Origin: Azotosporobacter soli
GTDB lineage: Bacteria > Bacillota > Negativicutes > SG130
DNA: 64,000 nucleotides
NCBI RefSeq assembly: GCF_030542965.1
Contig: NZ_JAUAOA010000021.1
Coordinates: 1 to 64,000 of the forward strand
Direction: 5' to 3'
This document shows, piece by piece, positions 50,770 through 64,000 of this stretch. The notes beneath the pieces were generated by a model, which was not told the origin of the DNA, did no database searches, and saw only the letters and a list, made by a program, of their open reading frames with translations. The position numbers were made by a program, and so were the translations under genes. The stretch's first letter is position 1. Each line of letters begins with the position of its first letter.

Positions 50770-51708
50770 TCAGGGAAGCGCGGCTCGACTGTGGTTAAGA
50801 CAAAGATCCACTAGATCGTTAAGCTTGGCGGTACCTACGCACATTACAGAATCGGCGGCCCCCCAGTAGATTTTGACGCTGCCGTCGTCTTCCGCGACGG
50901 CGCCGCAGCTGAATACGACGTTTGGCACATAGCCGGTCACTTCCCAAGCATCTTCCGGCTGCAAAATCCAACGATCGCTGACGCCGAGAATGACAGACGG
51001 ATCATCGAGCTGATGCAAGGCGACTCCAAGCCGGTATACGGCGCCGGCCATGGTAGGAAAAACGCCGTGATAGATCGACAGCCAGCCCTGCTCTGTCTTG
51101 ATCGGCGGCGCTCCGGGGCCGATCTTCATTTCATCCCAGTGATACGCCTCCGGCAGCATGATCAATTCCGCTTCGCCCCAATAGACGAGGTCAGGCGAAT
51201 AGCTGATCCAAATCGCCCAGGGCGAAATTTCAGAATGAGGACGGTCGAGACGCACGTAGCGGCCGTTTATTTTTTCTGGAAACAAGACGATGTTGCGATA
51301 ATCCGCCTCAGTAATCAGCGCGATGCGCTCCAATGAAGTGAAGTCAGAAGTTTTTGCCAGTACGATGCGTACGCCGTATTTGGAATAGGCGCTGTAGGTG
51401 ATGTAGTGTTCGCCGTCAATGCATGAAATGCGGGGGTCTTCCACGCCGAACGCTTCATATTTTTGGAAAATTCCTTCGCTTGCAGGGACAATGAATGGCT
51501 CAGGCCGCACCGTAAACGAATAACCGTCCCTGCTTTCCGCCAAGCCGATAATCGAACGACCGGTTGCAAGATGCGAACGGAAAAGCATGTAATACACGGA
51601 GCGGTATTTGGCAACGCCGGCGTTATGTACGGTGTGGACGTCGTAAGGAACATCTTGCCTAGTCAATATCGGGTTGCCGGGATAGCGTGTTACGATCGGA
51701 TCATGCAT
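50770..51708 (-). CDS. GH130-family beta-mannoside phosphorylase-like protein (1)
   Basis: 312 residues, five-bladed propeller. GH130 hallmarks: GNPILTR at the N-terminus, AFGVEDPRIS with the catalytic Asp, and SIYHGVF. Members phosphorolyse beta-mannosides to mannose-1-phosphate or hydrolyse them. GGAGGG precedes the start (complement 51717-51722). It faces away from the second GH130 and converges on the mutase gene with only 12 nt between stops. Linkage specificity cannot be assigned by eye. Confidence 0.88.
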   Translation of the reverse strand: MHDPIVTRYPGNPILTRQDVPYDVHTVHNAGVAKYRSVYYMLFRSHLATGRSIIGLAESRDGYSFTVRPEPFIVPASEGIFQKYEAFGVEDPRISCIDGEHYITYSAYSKYGVRIVLAKTSDFTSLERIALITEADYRNIVLFPEKINGRYVRLDRPHSEISPWAIWISYSPDLVYWGEAELIMLPEAYHWDEMKIGPGAPPIKTEQGWLSIYHGVFPTMAGAVYRLGVALHQLDDPSVILGVSDRWILQPEDAWEVTGYVPNVVFSCGAVAEDDGSVKIYWGAADSVMCVGTAKLNDLVDLCLNHSRAALP

Positions 51709-51803
51709 GATGGATGCCCTCCTTCTGCTTGCTTGTTATTTGGCTCATCATACTACAATGTCTAATTTAAATATACAATTGTTTACAACGAGAAAACACC
51801 GAT

Positions 51804-51832
51804 TTGACGAATGGAAAAAAATGGTGTATAAT
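51804..51832 (+). promoter_or_regulatory. Strong promoter of the second GH130 operon
   Basis: TTGACG (51804-51809), 17-nt spacer, TATAAT (51827-51832). It gives a leader of about 130 nt. Confidence 0.8.
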
Positions 51833-51837
51833 TAACT

Positions 51838-51970
51838 ACGGCTCGTTAGACGCTATCGGTAGCAGCGACAAATCAATACTATGCATAACCGCCACGGAAT
51901 ATAGGGATTGGTGTGACCTATCACACTTGCCGGCATCCGCCGAATACCCAGACGTAGGAGGTTTTTTTTT
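51838..51970 (+). promoter_or_regulatory. Structured 5' leader of the GH130-GT4-manC operon
   Basis: After the promoter, the leader holds two small hairpins: GCTA/TAGC at 51852-51863 and GTGTGA/TCACAC at 51911-51926. A further GC-rich part and the ribosome site GTAGGAGG follow. No coding frame or known riboswitch class was recognised. It might be a regulatory RNA leader or simply an untranslated region. Confidence 0.35.
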
Positions 51971-52978
51971 ATGGGCAAAAACAGGTTTGAATCAAAGTTA
52001 AAGAGCGAAAACAATACATATAAAGAGTTGTTTCAGCGTTATCCCAATAATCCGATCCTGACAGCCAAAGGCTGGCCTTACCCGGCAAATACCGTGTTCA
52101 ACCCGGCGGCAACGATGTTTCACGGCAAGGTGTTGCTGTTGGCCCGGGTCGAAGACCGGCGGGGTTTTTCACATCTGACGAAGGCGATCAGTGATGATGG
52201 CGTGAGCAATTGGCAGATTGAACGTGTGCCGACGCTTGAACCGGATCCGGAGCACTACCCGGAAGAGCAGTGGGGCATTGAAGATCCGCGGATTACTTGG
52301 CTGGCTGAATTAGAGAAATGGGCCATTGTTTACACGGCCTATTCGCGCGGCGGACCGCTCGTGGCAATGGCGCTGACGAGCGATTTCATCAAATTTGAGC
52401 GCTACGGCCCGATTATGCCGCCGGAAGATAAGGATGCGGCGCTTTTTCCGCGCCGGATTAATGGGAAATGGGCGTTAATTCATCGACCGATTACAGCAAA
52501 CTATGTGCCGGGCGCTCATATTTGGCTTTCTGTCACCGATGACTTTTCCCAGTGGGGAGAACGCCAGGTATTGATGCATGCGCGTCGCGGCGGCTGGTGG
52601 GATGGCGGAAAAATCGGTCTGGCTGCGCCGCCGATCGAAACGTCCGAAGGTTGGATTCTACTTTACCATGGTGTGCGCCTGACGGCTTCCGGATCGATCT
52701 ATCGCCTTGGCATGGCGCTGCTCGATCTTGATAATCCGCTGAAGGTGCTGCACCGCAGTGATGAATGGGTCTTTGGGCCAACCGAGTGGTACGAGCGCGA
52801 AGGCGATGTTGACGATGTCGTTTTTCCCAGCGGCTGCGTCGTCGATGAAAAGACGGGTGTGCTGAAGATGTATTATGGCGGCGCAGATTCCTGCATCGCA
52901 CTGGCAACCGCCAATGTAAGCGAGTTGCTGGAGTATCTCAAACGCTGTCCGGAAGCGATCGATGCGACGCTTTATTAG
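51971..52978 (+). CDS. GH130-family beta-mannoside phosphorylase-like protein (2)
   Basis: 335 residues. NNPILTAKGWPYPAN at the N-terminus, WGIEDPRIT with the catalytic Asp, LFPRRINGKWALIHRP with candidate phosphate-binding Arg residues, and LLYHGVR. It is paralogous to but clearly diverged from the neighbouring minus-strand GH130. Pairs of GH130 proteins of different subfamily in one locus are known in Thermoanaerobacter for beta-1,2-mannan, where one acts on oligomers and one on the disaccharide; whether that holds here is inference. Confidence 0.9.
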   Translation: MGKNRFESKLKSENNTYKELFQRYPNNPILTAKGWPYPANTVFNPAATMFHGKVLLLARVEDRRGFSHLTKAISDDGVSNWQIERVPTLEPDPEHYPEEQWGIEDPRITWLAELEKWAIVYTAYSRGGPLVAMALTSDFIKFERYGPIMPPEDKDAALFPRRINGKWALIHRPITANYVPGAHIWLSVTDDFSQWGERQVLMHARRGGWWDGGKIGLAAPPIETSEGWILLYHGVRLTASGSIYRLGMALLDLDNPLKVLHRSDEWVFGPTEWYEREGDVDDVVFPSGCVVDEKTGVLKMYYGGADSCIALATANVSELLEYLKRCPEAIDATLY

Positions 52979-55463: not shown

Positions 55464-56842
55464 AAATCATCATTCTCGCAGGCGGCGGCGGCAGCCGCCT
55501 TTTCCCGCTGTCGCGCAGTTTATTTCCCAAGCAATTTTTAAAACTGAACGGTGATACGTCGCTGCTCGCGCAGACGATAGCCCGCTTTCTTCCAGTGGTC
55601 AAAGCGGCGGATATGATCGTCGTGACCAATCAGGAATACATCCATCTGGTGAAAACGGAATTGATTGCCGTTGGTGCGCCGGAAGCGCACATCCTGCTCG
55701 AACCCGTGGCGCGAAATACCGCGCCGGCGATCGCGTTTGCCGTTCAGTACTGCAGAGAAGAATTGGGCTGCGCAGACGACGAGATTTTATATGTGACGCC
55801 GGCCGATCATCTGATCGAACCGGTGGACCTGTTTATTGTCAATGTCCGGCAAGCAGTCGAACTGGCAAAGCTCGACAAGATCGTCACGCTCGGCATACGG
55901 CCGGACCATCCGGAAACGGGGTATGGTTATATTCAGGCCGGGCCGGCATTTGAGAACGGTTTTACGGTACAATCGTTTCGTGAGAAGCCGGATCAAACAA
56001 CGGCAGAGTCGTATCTTGCGGCAGGCAACTATTATTGGAATGCGGGCATGTTCGCCTTTACGATGCAGCGTTTTATGACGGAACTAAAAGCGTATCAAAC
56101 GGAACTTTATGAAGCGACGGAGAGCGGCCTGGCGGCGATGACGGAAATTTTTGCCGAACTGCCCAATATTTCCTTTGACTATGCGATTGCGGAAAAATCA
56201 ACATCGATGGTGATGCTGCCGATCACAGCGCGCTGGAATGATATCGGCTCATGGGACGCCATCTACGATGCGTTGGCTAAAGATGAGAACGGCAATGCAT
56301 TAAAAGGAGATTGCCTGCCAATTGAGTGCAGTAACTCGTTGATTCTGGCGCACAGTCGCCTGATCGCCGGAATCGGTCTTGAGGATATCCTGGTTGTCGA
56401 AACGGATGACGTGATCGTCGTCGCAAAGAAAGGCGAGTCGCAAAAAGTCAAAGAGCTGGTGTCTGACTTGAAAGCGCGCGGCCGGATCGAGGCCGATCAG
56501 CATACGACGATTTATCGACCGTGGGGCTATTATACCGTGCTTGGTTCCGGGCCAGGCTACAAAATGAAGAAGATCGTAGTAAATCCCGATGAAATCCTTA
56601 GCCTACAAATGCATTATCATCGCAGCGAACATTGGATCGTGATCGGCGGTACGGCTAAGGTGACGATTGGCGAAAAAGAACAGATGGTGCATGAAAACGA
56701 AAGCGTTTTTGTGCCGCAGACGACGAAGCATCGGCTTGAAAATCCCGGCAGATTGCCGCTGCAAATTATCGAGGTGCAAAACGGCAGCTATCTGGACGAG
56801 GACGACATTGTCCGTTATGAGGATCGCTACGGAAGAAACTAG
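55460..56842 (+). CDS. manC: Mannose-1-phosphate guanylyltransferase/mannose-6-phosphate isomerase type II
   Basis: 460 residues. Nucleotidyltransferase domain with GGGGSRLFPLSR, FPKQFLKL, TPADHLI, GYGYIQAG and FREKPD, then a C-terminal cupin domain (about residues 345-455) with RPWGYY, LSLQMHYHRSEHW and the tail PLQIIEVQNG. It makes GDP-mannose from mannose-1-P and GTP, and the cupin part may isomerise fructose-6-P. It is the last gene of the mannan operon. Confidence 0.95.
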   Translation: MKIIILAGGGGSRLFPLSRSLFPKQFLKLNGDTSLLAQTIARFLPVVKAADMIVVTNQEYIHLVKTELIAVGAPEAHILLEPVARNTAPAIAFAVQYCREELGCADDEILYVTPADHLIEPVDLFIVNVRQAVELAKLDKIVTLGIRPDHPETGYGYIQAGPAFENGFTVQSFREKPDQTTAESYLAAGNYYWNAGMFAFTMQRFMTELKAYQTELYEATESGLAAMTEIFAELPNISFDYAIAEKSTSMVMLPITARWNDIGSWDAIYDALAKDENGNALKGDCLPIECSNSLILAHSRLIAGIGLEDILVVETDDVIVVAKKGESQKVKELVSDLKARGRIEADQHTTIYRPWGYYTVLGSGPGYKMKKIVVNPDEILSLQMHYHRSEHWIVIGGTAKVTIGEKEQMVHENESVFVPQTTKHRLENPGRLPLQIIEVQNGSYLDEDDIVRYEDRYGRN

Positions 56843-56843
56843 G

Positions 56844-56887
56844 AAAAAGCAGTTGGAGACGCAGTGCGTCTTCAACTGCTTTTTCTT
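56844..56887 (+). terminator. Terminator after manC
   Basis: A long stem AAAAAGCAGTTG...AGACGC pairs with GCGTCT...CAACTGCTTTTT, ending in T's. Confidence 0.9.
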
Positions 56888-56907
56888 AGCTTAGGTTATT
56901 AGAATGA

Positions 56908-57189
56908 ATGGCAGAAAATTTTGTAAAAAGGCAGGAGTGGGGGAAATCCCCATGGAATAACGTAAGTTACAAGAGCGCAAATACAAGGAGCATTCTGACG
57001 CTGTTTTATGATCTGCACGGGTGGAATTGTTCCGCGCTGCGAGCAATCGTTTCAGAGGCGTCAGCGGAGCTTGGACAAGCAATGCAGAGTAATCTTGCGG
57101 TTTTTATGAAAAACCCGTCTATTTTAGCAAAGAAGGATAGTCTCGTATTGGAATACGGAAGAGTGATAAAATTACGTGGAGGTGCCTGA
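56908..57189 (+). CDS. Unknown 93-residue protein upstream of the NRPS
   Basis: I do not recognise this protein. It is basic at the N-terminus, then has a possible amphipathic helix around SILTLFYDLHGW and another around SEASAELGQAMQSNLAVF. It is not an MbtH homologue (it lacks that family's Trp and Pro motifs) and has no carrier-protein DSL motif. Only 3 nt separate its stop from the NRPS start, whose GGAGGTG lies inside its end, so it is probably co-translated with the synthetase. The start at 56908 is weakly supported. Confidence 0.55.
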   Translation: MAENFVKRQEWGKSPWNNVSYKSANTRSILTLFYDLHGWNCSALRAIVSEASAELGQAMQSNLAVFMKNPSILAKKDSLVLEYGRVIKLRGGA

Positions 57190-57192
57190 GTG

Positions 57193-60100
57193 ATGAAAGC
57201 TCAATCCGAACAGTTAGTAACGCTGACGCATGCCCAGCGACGAATCATGTATGGCGAAGAATTTCATCCAGGAACTAATTTCGCCAATTTGGCGGCGGCT
57301 TTTGATTTGCCGGGCGATTGGGAGATAGAGCGCTTAAAAGAAAGCATCAATGCGGTACTGGACTGTAATGATGCTTTTCGTTTGCGACTGAAGCGTGATG
57401 CAGTAAGTGGTGAAACGCTCCAGTATGTTGCGTCGGGCAGCGTTCAATCGTTTCAAGTTACCGAGCTTGCGACGCAGGCGCAGTTGGACGACTGGATCCA
57501 TACGGCGGTTGAAACGCCGTTTTACCTGTATGATCAGAAGTTGTACCGCATCCTGTTGGCGCGCTGCCAGGGGCGGCTTGTACTGTTACTCGTTGCGCAT
57601 CATGTGATCTGCGACAATGGTTCGCTATATAATTTTATTCGACAGGTGCAGGAGCGGTATACAGGGCAAGAGCGCGGAAGCGTGAAACGATCCTATCTTG
57701 ATTATATTAATGAAGAAAAAGCGTATCTGGAATCGAAGCAGTACAAGACGGATGGCGATTTTTGGCGGGGACGATTCGCCGAACTGCCGGAATACAGCGC
57801 GCTTTATGGAAAAGAAACGCCAGCTATGAATATTGCCGCGGAGCGTATCGAATTTACTTTGCCGTCGGAAGCGCTGGGGCGGCTAAACGCGTTTTGCACG
57901 GCCAATCAATTAAGCTATTTCAGGGTCTTCACCACACTGTTTGCCGTGTGGCTGGCTCGCGTCACCGGACGTTATGACATGGTGTTGGGCGTGCCGTTTC
58001 ATAACCGGGTCAGCGAGGCGAGCAAAGGGCGACTCGGCCACTTTGTCAGCACATTACCGCTGCGCATTTCACTGGACGAGGAAGATACATTTCAGCAGGC
58101 TTTGGCAAAGGTGAACGACGAATTGCAAGCGGCCATTGCGCATCAGCGTTACCCTTTCGACCGGTTGGTAGAAGACTTGACGCAGCGGCAGGGCGAGCGC
58201 GTTCGGCTCTTGGAATATTATCTGGTGCAGAGCAGCGTAGGGCGCGACGGTCTGCAGAATTGCACGGCGACGCTGCCAAAGCGCAAATTTTCTCCTGAGC
58301 CGTTCGTTTTTTATTTGAATCAGGGCTTGGATGATGCGGCGGGCTTGAAAAAAATCGTCATCGAATACCAGAGCGCCAAATATACCGAGCAGGAAGTGCA
58401 GATGATTTATGACGGACTCTTGACCTTGCTGGACGGAGTTTTGACGGACGCGGCGCAGCGTATCAGCTTCTTGCCGCTGCTTTCGGCAGCGCAGCGAGAG
58501 GTATTGCTTTCTACATTCAATGATACGGCGCTGGAGGTTCCGCTTGAGCGATCGTATCACAGTCTCTTTCGCGAGCAGGCAAAGCGCACGCCGGAGAATA
58601 CGGCGCTGGTTTTCAAAGAAACAAGCTATACGTACCGGCAGTTGGACGAACGAACGGACAGCCTGGCGCTGCTGCTGCGCGAGCATGGCGTCACGAGTGA
58701 GACGATCGTACCGATCATGCTGGAACGTTCGGCGGAAATGGTTATCGCAGCGATTGCGGTCATGAAGGCGGGCGGGGCATACCTGCCGCTTGATATCAAG
58801 TATCCGCAGGCACGGCTCGATTATATGCTGGAAGACAGCAACGCGCGCCTGATCCTGAGCGAACTGTCGCTTAAAGACAAGTTCAGCCGCTTTGAAGGCT
58901 TCTTTATTGACGTCAAAGATGCGACGAACTATCCGCCTGTGCAAAAGCCGCCGGAAGAGCACAGTAGCGGCGACAATCTGGCTGCGATCATTTACACGTC
59001 GGGTTCTACCGGTCTGCCGAAAGGCACCATGATTCTTCATCGCGGTCTGATCAATATGTTTTACAGCGAAAACCGCGCGACGGCCCTGTCGGCAAAGGAC
59101 CGTCTGGCATCCTATGCGAGTTTCAGTTTCGACGCCTCGATGTGGTCGAACTTTGCGCCTCTCTTGGTCGGCGCAGCCGTGTATCTGGTTCCGGCGGAAA
59201 TCATGCTGTCGCTGGACGAATTGAACCGCTTTTTCGAAACAAACCAGATCAGCGTTACGTTCATGACGACGCAACTGTGCGAACAGTTTGCCGAATTGGT
59301 CGAGAACAAAAGCCTGCGTCTGATGGCGACCGGCGGCGAGAAGTACAAAGCGTACCGGGAAACGCCCTACCAGATCGTCAACGCCTACGGGCCGACCGAG
59401 TATACGATCTATACGACGCGTTTTCTGATTGATCGACCGTATGCCAATATGCCGATCGGCAAGCCGCTGGCCAATACCTGGGTATACGTACTGGACAAAA
59501 ATCTGCAACTGCAGCCGATCGGCGTGCCGGGCGAACTCTGCATCGCCGGTGCGCAGATGGCGCGCGGTTATCGCAACCGGCCGGAACTGACAGCGGAAAA
59601 ATTCATCGCCAATCCGCATGCGACGAACGAGCTGAACCAGCGTTTGTATCGCACCGGCGATCTGGTGCGCTGGCTGCCGGACGGCAATCTAGAGTTTTTA
59701 AGTCGGATCGACCAACAGGTGAAGATTCGCGGTTTCCGGATTGAGATCGGCGAGATCGAACAAAAGATATTGCAGTATGACGACGTCAAGGAAGCCGTCG
59801 TCATTGCCCGCGATGATGCGGCCGGCAACAAGTATTTGTGCGGCTATTTCGCCGCCGCGCGCAAAGTGGACGTCGAAGCGTTGAAAGGCTTTATGCTGGC
59901 TGACTTGCCCGATTTCATGATCCCGCAGCATCTGCTGCAGATCGAAGCATTGCCTCTTACCGCCAACGGCAAGGTGGATAAAAAAGCGTTGCCCGAAATC
60001 AACGGCGGTGCGGAAATAGGCGAATATATCGCGCCGCGCAATGATCTCGAACAGGAACTGTGCACGCTGTGGCAGGATATATTGGGCGTGAAGCAGGTGG

Positions 60101-63100
60101 GCATCTCCAATACCTTCACCAGTCTGGGCGGGACGTCGCTGAAACTGGTCGTGCTGGGCGCAAAGCTGCAAAAGTTTTTTGCGGTATCGCTTTCGGTGGC
60201 CGAGCTGCTGAAGATTCCGACGGTGGAAATACTGGCTAAGCGTCTGGCGCATACGCCGAAGGACGCGGTGCGCTACGAGCCGATTCCCAATCTGCCGCTT
60301 GCAGACGACTATGCGGTTTCACCGGCGCAAAAGGGCATGTACATCATTGATAAGATGGCGGATATCGGCAACACGTATCATGTCGTACTGCCGATCTTTC
60401 TGGAGGGGCGACTGGACAAGGCGCGCCTTGGTATGGCGATTGACAGCCTGGTGGAGAGGCATCCGGCGCTGCGCACGTCCTTTGCGCTGCGCGACGGCGA
60501 GGTGCGGCAAAAAATAAGCGCCGGCGTGCGCTTGAAAAAGACAATCAAGGTCGTGGACGAGTCTGCGATCGACAACGCAATTGCCGACTTCATTCAGCGT
60601 TTTGACCTGGAGGAAGCGCCGTTATTCCGGGTGGCGCTCTTGGAAATTGACGCCTATAAGCATATGCTGGTTCTTGACGCGCATCATATCGTGCTGGATG
60701 GCGTTTCAGTAGTGGTGCTGGTAAAAGAACTGATGAAGCTTTATCAAAACGAGTCGTTGCCGCCGCTGACGGTATCCTATCATGAATATGCGGCTTGGTA
60801 TAATGCCAGACTCGAAAGCGGTGCGTTAGGCAAGCAGGAAGCCTTTTGGCTGGAACGCTTGCAGGGAGAGCTGCCGGTGTTGAATCTGGCTACCGATTAT
60901 CCGCGCCCGGCGAATAAAAAATACCAGGGCGGAAAAATCTTTGCCGATCTGGATAAAGGCACCGCCGAAAAACTGAAACGCATTGCCGAAGCGCAGGGAG
61001 TGACGTTCTTTGCCTTGCTGCTGGCGGCGTTCAAAACGCTGCTGGCCCGTTACAGCGGACAGGATGAAATCATCGTCGGTTCGCCATTTGCCAATCGCAC
61101 GCATCCGGATGTTGACGGCATGCTCGGCATGTTCGTCAATACGCTGCCGCTGCGCAGCTATCCGCAGCGCGACAAAACCTTTCAAGCTTACTTACAGGAA
61201 GTCAACGAAATTCTCTTATCGGCCAATGACAATCAGGCCTACCCGTTTGAAAAAATGGTCGAAAAACTGGGCTTGGAGCGTGACGTCAGCCGGAATCCGA
61301 TTTATGACGTAGTCTTCGCGTTCTTTGTCGAAGAGTTTCTCTTTGATGCGGGCGGGCTGTCAATCAAACGCTATGACTATGATGCGAAAGAAGCGCATTT
61401 CGATCTGCTCTTTTATGTCTTTGAAAACCAGCAAGGCTTATCGATGTTTCTCGAATATGACCGCAATCTGTACCAAACAGAGAGCGCGCAGCGCCTGACC
61501 GAGCATTTCATCAATCTGCTCGGCGTGCTGGCAGACGGCATCGACGGCAAACTGGCGGAATTCGAATTCATTTCGTCTGCAGAACGCGAGCGCCTGCTGT
61601 GCGCTTTTAACGCCAAGCAACTTCCGGTACCGTTTGAACGCGCTTATCATTCCCTCTTCCGCGAGCAGGCGGCGCGGACGCCGGACAAGGCCGCCTTGGT
61701 CTTTAAAGGAAATGTGCTCAGCTACCGCCAACTGGATGAAAAGACTGATCGTTTGGCGCTTGCACTGCGCAAGCGGGGCGTGCAGCGTGAAACGATTGTG
61801 CCGATCATGCTGGAACGTTCGGCTGAAATGGTCGTAGCGGCGCTTGCCGTGATGAAGGCGGGCGGGGCATATCTGCCGCTTGATATCAAATATCCGCAGG
61901 CACGGCTCGATTATATGCTGTCGGATAGCGCGGCGACGCTGATTCTCAGTCAGCCGTTGCTCAAGGAAAAATTCATTCAGTTCAGCGGCGCGTTCATCGA
62001 CGTCACCGATCCGGCTTTGTATGAGGTTGATGGTGGAGCGGAGCTTGTTTGTCCGGACGTCAACCATGGCCGTGATTTGGCGGCGATCATCTACACGTCC
62101 GGTTCGACCGGGCTGCCGAAAGGGACGATGATCCTGCACCGCAATATCGTCAACATGTGCCTGAGTGAAATTTGCGATATGCAAATGACCGAGGCCGATA
62201 TCATGGCCTCGTATGCGAGCTTCAGTTTCGATGCGGCGATGTGGTCGAACTTTTCGCCGCTCTTGACCGGGGCGACCGTTCATATCGTGCCGGAAGAGAT
62301 CATGCTGTCGCTGGCCGATCTGAACCTCTTCTTTGAAGAACACCGTGCGACGGTGACGTTTATGACGACGCAATTGTGCGAGCAGTTTACCGAACTGGCG
62401 GACAACAAATCGCTGCGGATCCTGGCGACCGGCGGCGAAAAATACAAGAGCTATCGTCCGACTTCCTATCAGGTCGTCAACGGCTACGGGCCGACCGAAT
62501 ACACGGTTTATACGACCCGCTTCGTCATTGATAAAAACTACGACAACATACCGATCGGCAAACCGTTGGCCAATGCCAGGGTCTATGTCGTCGATAAGGA
62601 TTACCGGCTGCAGCCGGTCGGTGTGCCGGGCGAACTTTGCGTCGCAGGGCCGCAGCTGTCGCGCGGCTATCGCAACCGCGACGATCTGACGCTGGAAAAA
62701 TTCATTGCTAATCCATATGGCGAGGGCGAAATCTACGGACGGATGTATCGCACCGGCGATTTGGTTCGCTGGCTGCCGGACGGCAATCTGGAATTCTTGA
62801 GCCGCATTGATCAGCAGGTTAAGATACGGGGGTTTCGCATCGAGATTGGCGAAATCGAGCAGAAAATCATGGCATACGACACGGTCAAAGAAGCGGTCGT
62901 CGTTGCAAAAGACGATTCCTCCGGCAATAAATTCCTCTGCGCCTATTTCACCGCGACCGAAGCGGTCGCCTTGGAAGACCTGAAAGGCTTCATGGCCAAT
63001 GATCTGCCGAACTATATGATTCCCGCCTATATCATGCAGATCGAGACGATGCCGCTCAATGCCAACGGCAAGATTGACAAAAAGGCGCTGCCGGAGGTCG

Positions 63101-64000
63101 AACGAACCGTAACGGTTGGAGAATTCGTCGCGCCGCGTAGCGACGCCGAGAAAAAAGTCGCCGCGGTCTGGCAGGAAGTGCTCGGCATTGCGCAAGTCGG
63201 CGTGACCGACAACTTCTTTTCCATCGGCGGCAACTCGATCAAAGCGATATCGACAGTGGCCAAACTGCAGAAGTTTTTCGCGGTCAGCATCAACGATCTC
63301 TTTGAGCAGCAGACGTTGGAAGGCTTGGCGAAACGGATGACGCCGCGCGAGGACAATTTAAAGGTGCGCTTGTCACAGCTGAAGGAATTGGAAAAGGACG
63401 TAGAGCGCGATGTTCTAGAAACGTCTGAAATTGCGGCGCAGAAACGCGACTATGCGGCGAAGAATGAAGCGTACCTAGCGATGGCGCTGGACGGGGAAAA
63501 AGACTACCGCGACGTGTTGGTAACCGGCGCGACCGGTTACTTGGGCATCCATGTCCTGCATGAGTTGCTCACTACGAAAACCTGCCGTCTGCATGTCATC
63601 ATCCGCGGCCAGACGCAAGAAGCGGCGCAGCAGCGTTTGGCGAAAAAAATCGCGTATTATTTCGGCCCGCAGGCCTGGCAGGAACTGAAGATCGACGAAC
63701 GTGTGACGATTCTGGCCGGCGACCTGCAAGCCGCGCAGCTCGGCGTGGCTGCGGCGGCGTATCAAGAAATGGCGGAGCGTGTCGAGGCGATCATCCATAC
63801 GGCGGCCAACGTCCGGCATTACGGCCATTATCAGGAGTTTTACGACAGCAATGTGCAGGCGACGCTGGAACTCTTGGCACTTGCCAAAACCGGCAGTCGC
63901 AAGGATTTTCACCACATTTCGACGATGTCGGTCGGCGACGGCGCCATTGCAAAACAGGAACGGGCCGTGTTTACCGAATATGAGTTGGATATCGGCCAGG
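57193..64000 (+). CDS. Nonribosomal peptide synthetase C-A-T-C-A-T-R (3' end beyond window)
   Basis: An open frame of 2,269 codons to the window edge. Domains by residue: C1 about 8-440 (motif HHVICDN at 136, where the last Gly of HHxxxDG is Asn); A1 about 450-935 (YTSGSTGLPKG, YGPTEYTIY, YRTGD, GKVDKKALPE); T1 with GGTSLK (Ser982); C2 about 1033-1466 (HHIVLDG); A2 about 1480-1965; T2 with GGNSIK (Ser2015); then a thioester reductase domain starting VLVTGATGYLGIHV near 2107, incomplete here. The N-terminal C domain suggests a starter unit, such as a fatty acyl group, on a dipeptide. The terminal reductase releases an aldehyde, which can cyclise to a pyrazinone. GGAGGTG precedes the ATG. Confidence 0.94.
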   Translation, partial: MKAQSEQLVTLTHAQRRIMYGEEFHPGTNFANLAAAFDLPGDWEIERLKESINAVLDCNDAFRLRLKRDAVSGETLQYVASGSVQSFQVTELATQAQLDDWIHTAVETPFYLYDQKLYRILLARCQGRLVLLLVAHHVICDNGSLYNFIRQVQERYTGQERGSVKRSYLDYINEEKAYLESKQYKTDGDFWRGRFAELPEYSALYGKETPAMNIAAERIEFTLPSEALGRLNAFCTANQLSYFRVFTTLFAVWLARVTGRYDMVLGVPFHNRVSEASKGRLGHFVSTLPLRISLDEEDTFQQALAKVNDELQAAIAHQRYPFDRLVEDLTQRQGERVRLLEYYLVQSSVGRDGLQNCTATLPKRKFSPEPFVFYLNQGLDDAAGLKKIVIEYQSAKYTEQEVQMIYDGLLTLLDGVLTDAAQRISFLPLLSAAQREVLLSTFNDTALEVPLERSYHSLFREQAKRTPENTALVFKETSYTYRQLDERTDSLALLLREHGVTSETIVPIMLERSAEMVIAAIAVMKAGGAYLPLDIKYPQARLDYMLEDSNARLILSELSLKDKFSRFEGFFIDVKDATNYPPVQKPPEEHSSGDNLAAIIYTSGSTGLPKGTMILHRGLINMFYSENRATALSAKDRLASYASFSFDASMWSNFAPLLVGAAVYLVPAEIMLSLDELNRFFETNQISVTFMTTQLCEQFAELVENKSLRLMATGGEKYKAYRETPYQIVNAYGPTEYTIYTTRFLIDRPYANMPIGKPLANTWVYVLDKNLQLQPIGVPGELCIAGAQMARGYRNRPELTAEKFIANPHATNELNQRLYRTGDLVRWLPDGNLEFLSRIDQQVKIRGFRIEIGEIEQKILQYDDVKEAVVIARDDAAGNKYLCGYFAAARKVDVEALKGFMLADLPDFMIPQHLLQIEALPLTANGKVDKKALPEINGGAEIGEYIAPRNDLEQELCTLWQDILGVKQVGISNTFTSLGGTSLKLVVLGAKLQKFFAVSLSVAELLKIPTVEILAKRLAHTPKDAVRYEPIPNLPLADDYAVSPAQKGMYIIDKMADIGNTYHVVLPIFLEGRLDKARLGMAIDSLVERHPALRTSFALRDGEVRQKISAGVRLKKTIKVVDESAIDNAIADFIQRFDLEEAPLFRVALLEIDAYKHMLVLDAHHIVLDGVSVVVLVKELMKLYQNESLPPLTVSYHEYAAWYNARLESGALGKQEAFWLERLQGELPVLNLATDYPRPANKKYQGGKIFADLDKGTAEKLKRIAEAQGVTFFALLLAAFKTLLARYSGQDEIIVGSPFANRTHPDVDGMLGMFVNTLPLRSYPQRDKTFQAYLQEVNEILLSANDNQAYPFEKMVEKLGLERDVSRNPIYDVVFAFFVEEFLFDAGGLSIKRYDYDAKEAHFDLLFYVFENQQGLSMFLEYDRNLYQTESAQRLTEHFINLLGVLADGIDGKLAEFEFISSAERERLLCAFNAKQLPVPFERAYHSLFREQAARTPDKAALVFKGNVLSYRQLDEKTDRLALALRKRGVQRETIVPIMLERSAEMVVAALAVMKAGGAYLPLDIKYPQARLDYMLSDSAATLILSQPLLKEKFIQFSGAFIDVTDPALYEVDGGAELVCPDVNHGRDLAAIIYTSGSTGLPKGTMILHRNIVNMCLSEICDMQMTEADIMASYASFSFDAAMWSNFSPLLTGATVHIVPEEIMLSLADLNLFFEEHRATVTFMTTQLCEQFTELADNKSLRILATGGEKYKSYRPTSYQVVNGYGPTEYTVYTTRFVIDKNYDNIPIGKPLANARVYVVDKDYRLQPVGVPGELCVAGPQLSRGYRNRDDLTLEKFIANPYGEGEIYGRMYRTGDLVRWLPDGNLEFLSRIDQQVKIRGFRIEIGEIEQKIMAYDTVKEAVVVAKDDSSGNKFLCAYFTATEAVALEDLKGFMANDLPNYMIPAYIMQIETMPLNANGKIDKKALPEVERTVTVGEFVAPRSDAEKKVAAVWQEVLGIAQVGVTDNFFSIGGNSIKAISTVAKLQKFFAVSINDLFEQQTLEGLAKRMTPREDNLKVRLSQLKELEKDVERDVLETSEIAAQKRDYAAKNEAYLAMALDGEKDYRDVLVTGATGYLGIHVLHELLTTKTCRLHVIIRGQTQEAAQQRLAKKIAYYFGPQAWQELKIDERVTILAGDLQAAQLGVAAAAYQEMAERVEAIIHTAANVRHYGHYQEFYDSNVQATLELLALAKTGSRKDFHHISTMSVGDGAIAKQERAVFTEYELDIGQ

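Follow-up and report, generated by a model that had tools for sequence, protein, structure and literature searches.

A reductase-terminated NRPS with a starter-type condensation domain and a cNMP-fold tail, predicted to release an N-acyl dipeptide aldehyde

Introduction

N-acyl peptide aldehydes are typical inhibitors of proteases and of the proteasome, and the chemistry by which such aldehydes are made is of a known kind. In the aureusimine synthetase AusA the domains follow the order A-T-C-A-T-R, and the enzyme is not known to have a condensation domain at the front or a domain after the reductase. Gut Clostridia are reported, in work of Guo (2017) and of Schneider and Balskus (2018), to make ruminopeptin and other gut peptide aldehydes with dimodular, reductase-terminated NRPSs that begin with a starter condensation domain.

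Here we analyse an NRPS gene that runs off the end of the window, by which we mean the first 64,000 bases of contig C21 (74,267 bp) in the 3.78-Mb draft genome of Azotosporobacter soli, the sole species of its family and order among the genomes in our collection.

Results

A complete dimodular synthetase followed by a cNMP-fold domain

Another 1,040 bp of the NRPS frame lie beyond the window edge, and the whole encodes 2,615 amino acids, counted from the ATG, with GGAGG immediately 5' of the start codons (Table 1). According to Pfam, the full-length protein has the order C-A-T-C-A-T-R and then a C-terminal PF00027 domain of the cNMP fold; two Condensation, two AMP-binding, two PP-binding matches and one NAD_binding_4 match stand far over their curated cut-offs. 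The core motifs of the C and T domains are intact, as are TGATGYLG and YxxxK (reading YYVRTK) in the reductase, which aligns with the solved aldehyde-forming R domains 8v1x, 6vtj, 4u7w and that of AusA, 4f6c. In C1 the DG of HHxxxDG is replaced by DN and the catalytic His is kept. The preliminary description, made from the window, had announced a dimodular synthetase ending in a reductase, and the sequence past 64 kb bears this out; what it missed is the cNMP-fold domain, which begins 0.7 kb beyond the edge.

Table 1. Positions of the NRPS gene, its domains and neighboring features, and of the second NRPS of the genome
Feature	Position	Strand	Basis or remark
Hairpin terminator with T-run, separating manC from the NRPS gene	56842..56891	+	RNA fold
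93-aa ORF in the gap directly 5' of the NRPS gene	56908..57189	+	Unassigned by profile search (no Pfam or NCBIfam match)
NRPS gene	57190..64000 in the window; stop at contig position 65040	+	Open frame, GTG 57190 or ATG 57193
C1, starter-type condensation domain (putative)	57208..58509	+	PF00668, 240 bits; HHVICDN
A1, adenylation domain	58630..59802	+	TIGR01733, residues 480-870; code DAWFAGAIYK by MAFFT against 1AMU
T1, carrier domain (approximate bounds)	60055..60252	+	PF00550 in two stretches; sequence, LGGTS
C2, condensation domain, LCL-like	60304..61599	+	PF00668, 392 bits; HHIVLDG; clusters with internal C domains
A2, adenylation domain with C-terminal subdomain	61657..63072	+	PF00501, PF13193; code DAWFAGGVYK against 1AMU
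T2, carrier domain	63154..63333	+	PF00550, residues 1988-2047; IGGNS
R, thioester reductase, cut by the window edge	63520..64000 in the window; ends at contig position 64251	+	PF07993 (NAD_binding_4), 167.6 bits
cNMP-fold tail domain, outside the window	C21:64699-64959	+	PF00027, 32.1 bits (cut-off 27.5)
Probable terminator hairpin 3' of the NRPS gene, outside the window	65057-65119		RNA fold, -23.8 kcal/mol, z -5.1
GGDEF protein with intact GGDEF motif, next gene downstream	C21:65189-65923 (L009:13190-13924)		Behind the probable terminator
Second NRPS	G000:C1:193771-209280 (L011, L012)		About 5,170 aa; C-A-T-C-A-T-E-C-A-T-C-A-T-R and cNMP-fold tail

The hairpin upstream of the gene is very stable (-32.5 kcal/mol, z -7.9, equaled by none of 200 shuffles). 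Because strong T-run hairpins stand on both sides, the NRPS gene appears to be its own transcription unit, probably transcribed apart from the manC and glycosyltransferase genes upstream and from the GGDEF gene downstream. The 93-aa ORF that precedes it is possibly merely leader sequence. No tailoring or export gene adjoins the NRPS gene, and no known RNA, riboswitches included, was found across 57 kb around the two NRPSs of the genome. The genome does encode a phosphopantetheinyl transferase of Sfp size, in a 216-aa frame.

Some features of the surroundings deserve mention in their own right. The glycosyltransferase/manC cluster contains two divergent genes for beta-1,4-mannooligosaccharide phosphorylases of family GH130 (window 50770-52978), and on the other side of the NRPS gene C21:67915-71898 (L009:15916-19899) encodes a fusion protein, no shorter than 1,328 aa, of a conflict-system-type family-4 glycosyltransferase (PF20706) and many TPR repeats. 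The genome encodes Omp85, and we take the bacterium to be, probably, a diderm of the Negativicutes type; the Pfam model for LptD found no match in it.

The same architecture on a second contig

The second NRPS of the genome has four modules and one E domain, and it too ends in a reductase and a cNMP-fold tail (Table 1). The tails and linkers of the two synthetases are 43% identical. Since the R-cNMP architecture is found on two independent contigs, an assembly chimera is excluded. The A codes of its last three modules read DAWNVGEISK, DAWNVGEVSK and DAWNVGEVSK, and that of the first, read by eye, DAWDVGEIS. An MFS exporter gene adjoins it, and genes for an AraC regulator and an aminotransferase lie nearby. 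The preliminary description held NRPSs to be uncommon in such anaerobes, a view supported neither by this genome, with its second and larger synthetase, nor by the class as a whole: 158 of its 380 genomes give Condensation hits, and many of these lie in frames of 2,000-6,000 aa.

Starter condensation, adenylation pockets and the expected product

In a tree of 37 C and E domains from the source genome and Paenibacillus terrae, C1 and the first C domain of the second NRPS form one supported group (97/98 and 99/92) with four P. terrae C domains, which are labelled as starters by their first position in their NRPSs and not by assay; C2 is placed among the internal domains. The grouping supports the assignment of C1 to the starter subtype, as had been proposed from the window.

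Aligned to PheA (1AMU, with which the fragment that we used is identical), the pocket codes of A1 and A2 (Table 1) are near-identical, and they contain no acidic residue beyond D235. Both domains probably take similar residues, in pockets that are probably non-polar, and we name no single amino acid. The codes given earlier agree with these at seven of nine positions and fail at 299 and 301, where they had been shifted by one.

Judging from this domain content, C1 would acylate the first aminoacyl-T, C2 would join the second residue, and R would use NAD(P)H to free an N-acyl dipeptide aldehyde. Aldehydes made by such reductases can cyclise to pyrazines or pyrazinones, as in the aureusimines, when an amine is free (PMC7586950). 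The starter C should acylate the very amine needed for this cyclisation, for which reason we favor a linear product over a pyrazinone: probably a linear N-acyl dipeptide aldehyde, with a presumed fatty-acyl cap. Of the aldehyde or pyrazinone foreseen from the window, the first therefore stands, whereas the second is hard to reconcile with the N-terminal cap predicted alongside it.

Alternatively, the enzyme could be an aureusimine-type pyrazinone synthetase in which C1 is decorative or inactive, so that a free dipeptide aldehyde cyclises. AusA is indeed the top-scoring NCBIfam model for the protein (NF047350, 1491.5 bits), but this score falls well under the equivalog cut-off of 2500, and C1 is present with its catalytic His, whereas AusA is not known to have a starter C; we regard this alternative as unlikely.

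The tail belongs to a clade of its own

The PF00027 scores of the two NRPS tails, 32.1 and 43.3 bits, exceed the cut-off of 27.5. In a tree of 49 rows the tails of NRPSs, C-R proteins, C-cNMP proteins and HEAT-type transporters form a clade split from the nearest Crp regulators (100/99), and we compared motifs between its 22 members and 27 Crp regulators. The Arg of the phosphate cassette is found in none of the 22, being Ser in the window NRPS and Ala in the second. By itself this loss is not diagnostic, as the Crp regulators keep the Arg in just 6 of 27; diagnostic are the clade and a GW motif, present in 18 of the 22 tails and in none of the 27 regulators, which mostly have R or K there. 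The missing Arg, the GW motif and clade, and the lack of a cyclase in the genome by the PF00211 model together argue against binding of cAMP or cGMP, which on these sequence grounds seems unlikely. A cNMP fold without cyclic-nucleotide binding has a published precedent in the family 2B encapsulins (PMC12407261), and the encapsulin profile NF041163 matches the tail weakly.

These results weigh heavily against the idea that the tail is a true sensor of cAMP, cGMP or c-di-GMP, the last of them supplied by the GGDEF gene downstream. Its PF00027 match exceeds the cut-off, and the product of the next gene does carry an intact GGDEF motif; the tail nevertheless lacks the cassette Arg, the genome the PF00211 cyclase, and we consider such a sensor very improbable. 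The c-di-GMP link through the GGDEF gene is itself weak, as a terminator intervenes and the 55 kb around the second NRPS contain no GGDEF match.

Relatives of the tail in other genomes

Besides the two described here, no full NRPS with a cNMP tail was found in the 380 genomes of the class or in 398 genomes sampled from the phylum. Among named genomes, a first scan for R-cNMP gave no confirmed relative, and a second only two weak matches and Paenibacillus R domains in which the match ends before the tail. Nearest to such an enzyme comes a 1,053-aa C-R-cNMP protein (G082, L046:7766-10924), which lacks A and T and carries a degenerate nucleotide motif, GADEYVG, in its R domain.

Related bacteria also encode two-domain condensation-cNMP proteins of about 620-690 aa (L048, L049, L052-L065), nearly all of which have lost HHxxxDG with its catalytic histidines. 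At 8 of the 14 loci L052-L065, which were picked for matching, so that the figure is a description and not a rate, the gene lies beside genes for a SpoIIE phosphatase (of the SpoIIE-Cache-HAMP type), STAS and/or RsbW-like (HATPase_c_2) proteins. This suggests a pseudo-condensation protein working within a partner-switching module; no such partner-switch genes are found near the window NRPS. An exception among the two-domain proteins is that of G298 (L056:8252-10339), which reads PHITFDG and lies inside an NRPS cluster with C-A-T modules, preceded by a T-T protein and followed by a PPTase. In G511 (L087:4405-8968) the gene after a HATPase_c_2-GNAT gene encodes a membrane protein with HEAT repeats, and the cNMP tail of this protein clusters with those of the NRPSs.

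The tail could also be a passive module for oligomerisation or scaffolding that uses the dimerising helix of Crp-type domains and takes no ligand or signal. The loss of the cyclic-phosphate Arg in a degenerate cassette would agree with this, as would the C-terminal helix that the NRPS tail and the HEAT-type proteins have in common (RKLEKMLVSIG versus RKLEKMLITMA). Related tails nonetheless adjoin signalling genes at those eight loci, suggesting a regulatory setting, and we find a purely passive role rather unlikely.

Discussion

On balance we think it reasonably likely that the gene encodes, on its own, a dimodular reductase NRPS with a starter C that makes an N-acyl dipeptide aldehyde, and that its cNMP-fold tail is a regulatory or oligomerising module. 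What the tail would bind is most likely another protein, or else a ligand that is neither cAMP nor cGMP, and such binding may tune peptide release or the assembly of the enzyme. A more daring version, which we advance tentatively and with less than even confidence, is that the GW-type cNMP-fold module, not described before, is a control end of NRPSs in this class that gates reductive release, and that it has been reused on broken condensation proteins in SpoIIE/STAS/RsbW-like partner switching, turning parts of NRPSs into parts of signalling systems.

Regulation of NRPSs is usually thought to be transcriptional. A conserved domain of a sensor fold placed covalently after the release domain would, if the above is correct, offer a handle for the post-translational control of peptide release. 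The tail family also suggests that condensation domains have left biosynthesis for signalling, and the peptide aldehyde itself would be a further candidate protease inhibitor from an anaerobe.

Our search of the literature on cNMP domains fused to NRPSs found no paper; what is new here is the R-cNMP tail with its clade, and the architecture is a new variant of known ones. With the NRPSs of gut Clostridia the window NRPS has in common C-A-T-C-A-T-R, the starter C and reductive release; it comes from a different bacterial class, other A codes are expected, and it carries the cNMP-fold tail after R. With AusA it shares the two modules and the terminal R (aligning at E 9e-26). The R domains of reductase-terminated NRPSs of Paenibacillus (P. 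maysiensis, P. terrae and P. macerans; L098-L100) are 37-38% identical to its own, the match ending at query residue 373-391 of 511, short of the cNMP domain. Shell proteins of the family 2B encapsulins provide a case of a cNMP-fold domain with a divergent site on a metabolic protein (PMC8346489, PMC12407261), although there the fold is inserted in an HK97 shell protein and not fused to an NRPS. Finally, the condensation-cNMP proteins share with the window NRPS both the tail clade and a condensation domain and, unlike it, have no A, T or R.
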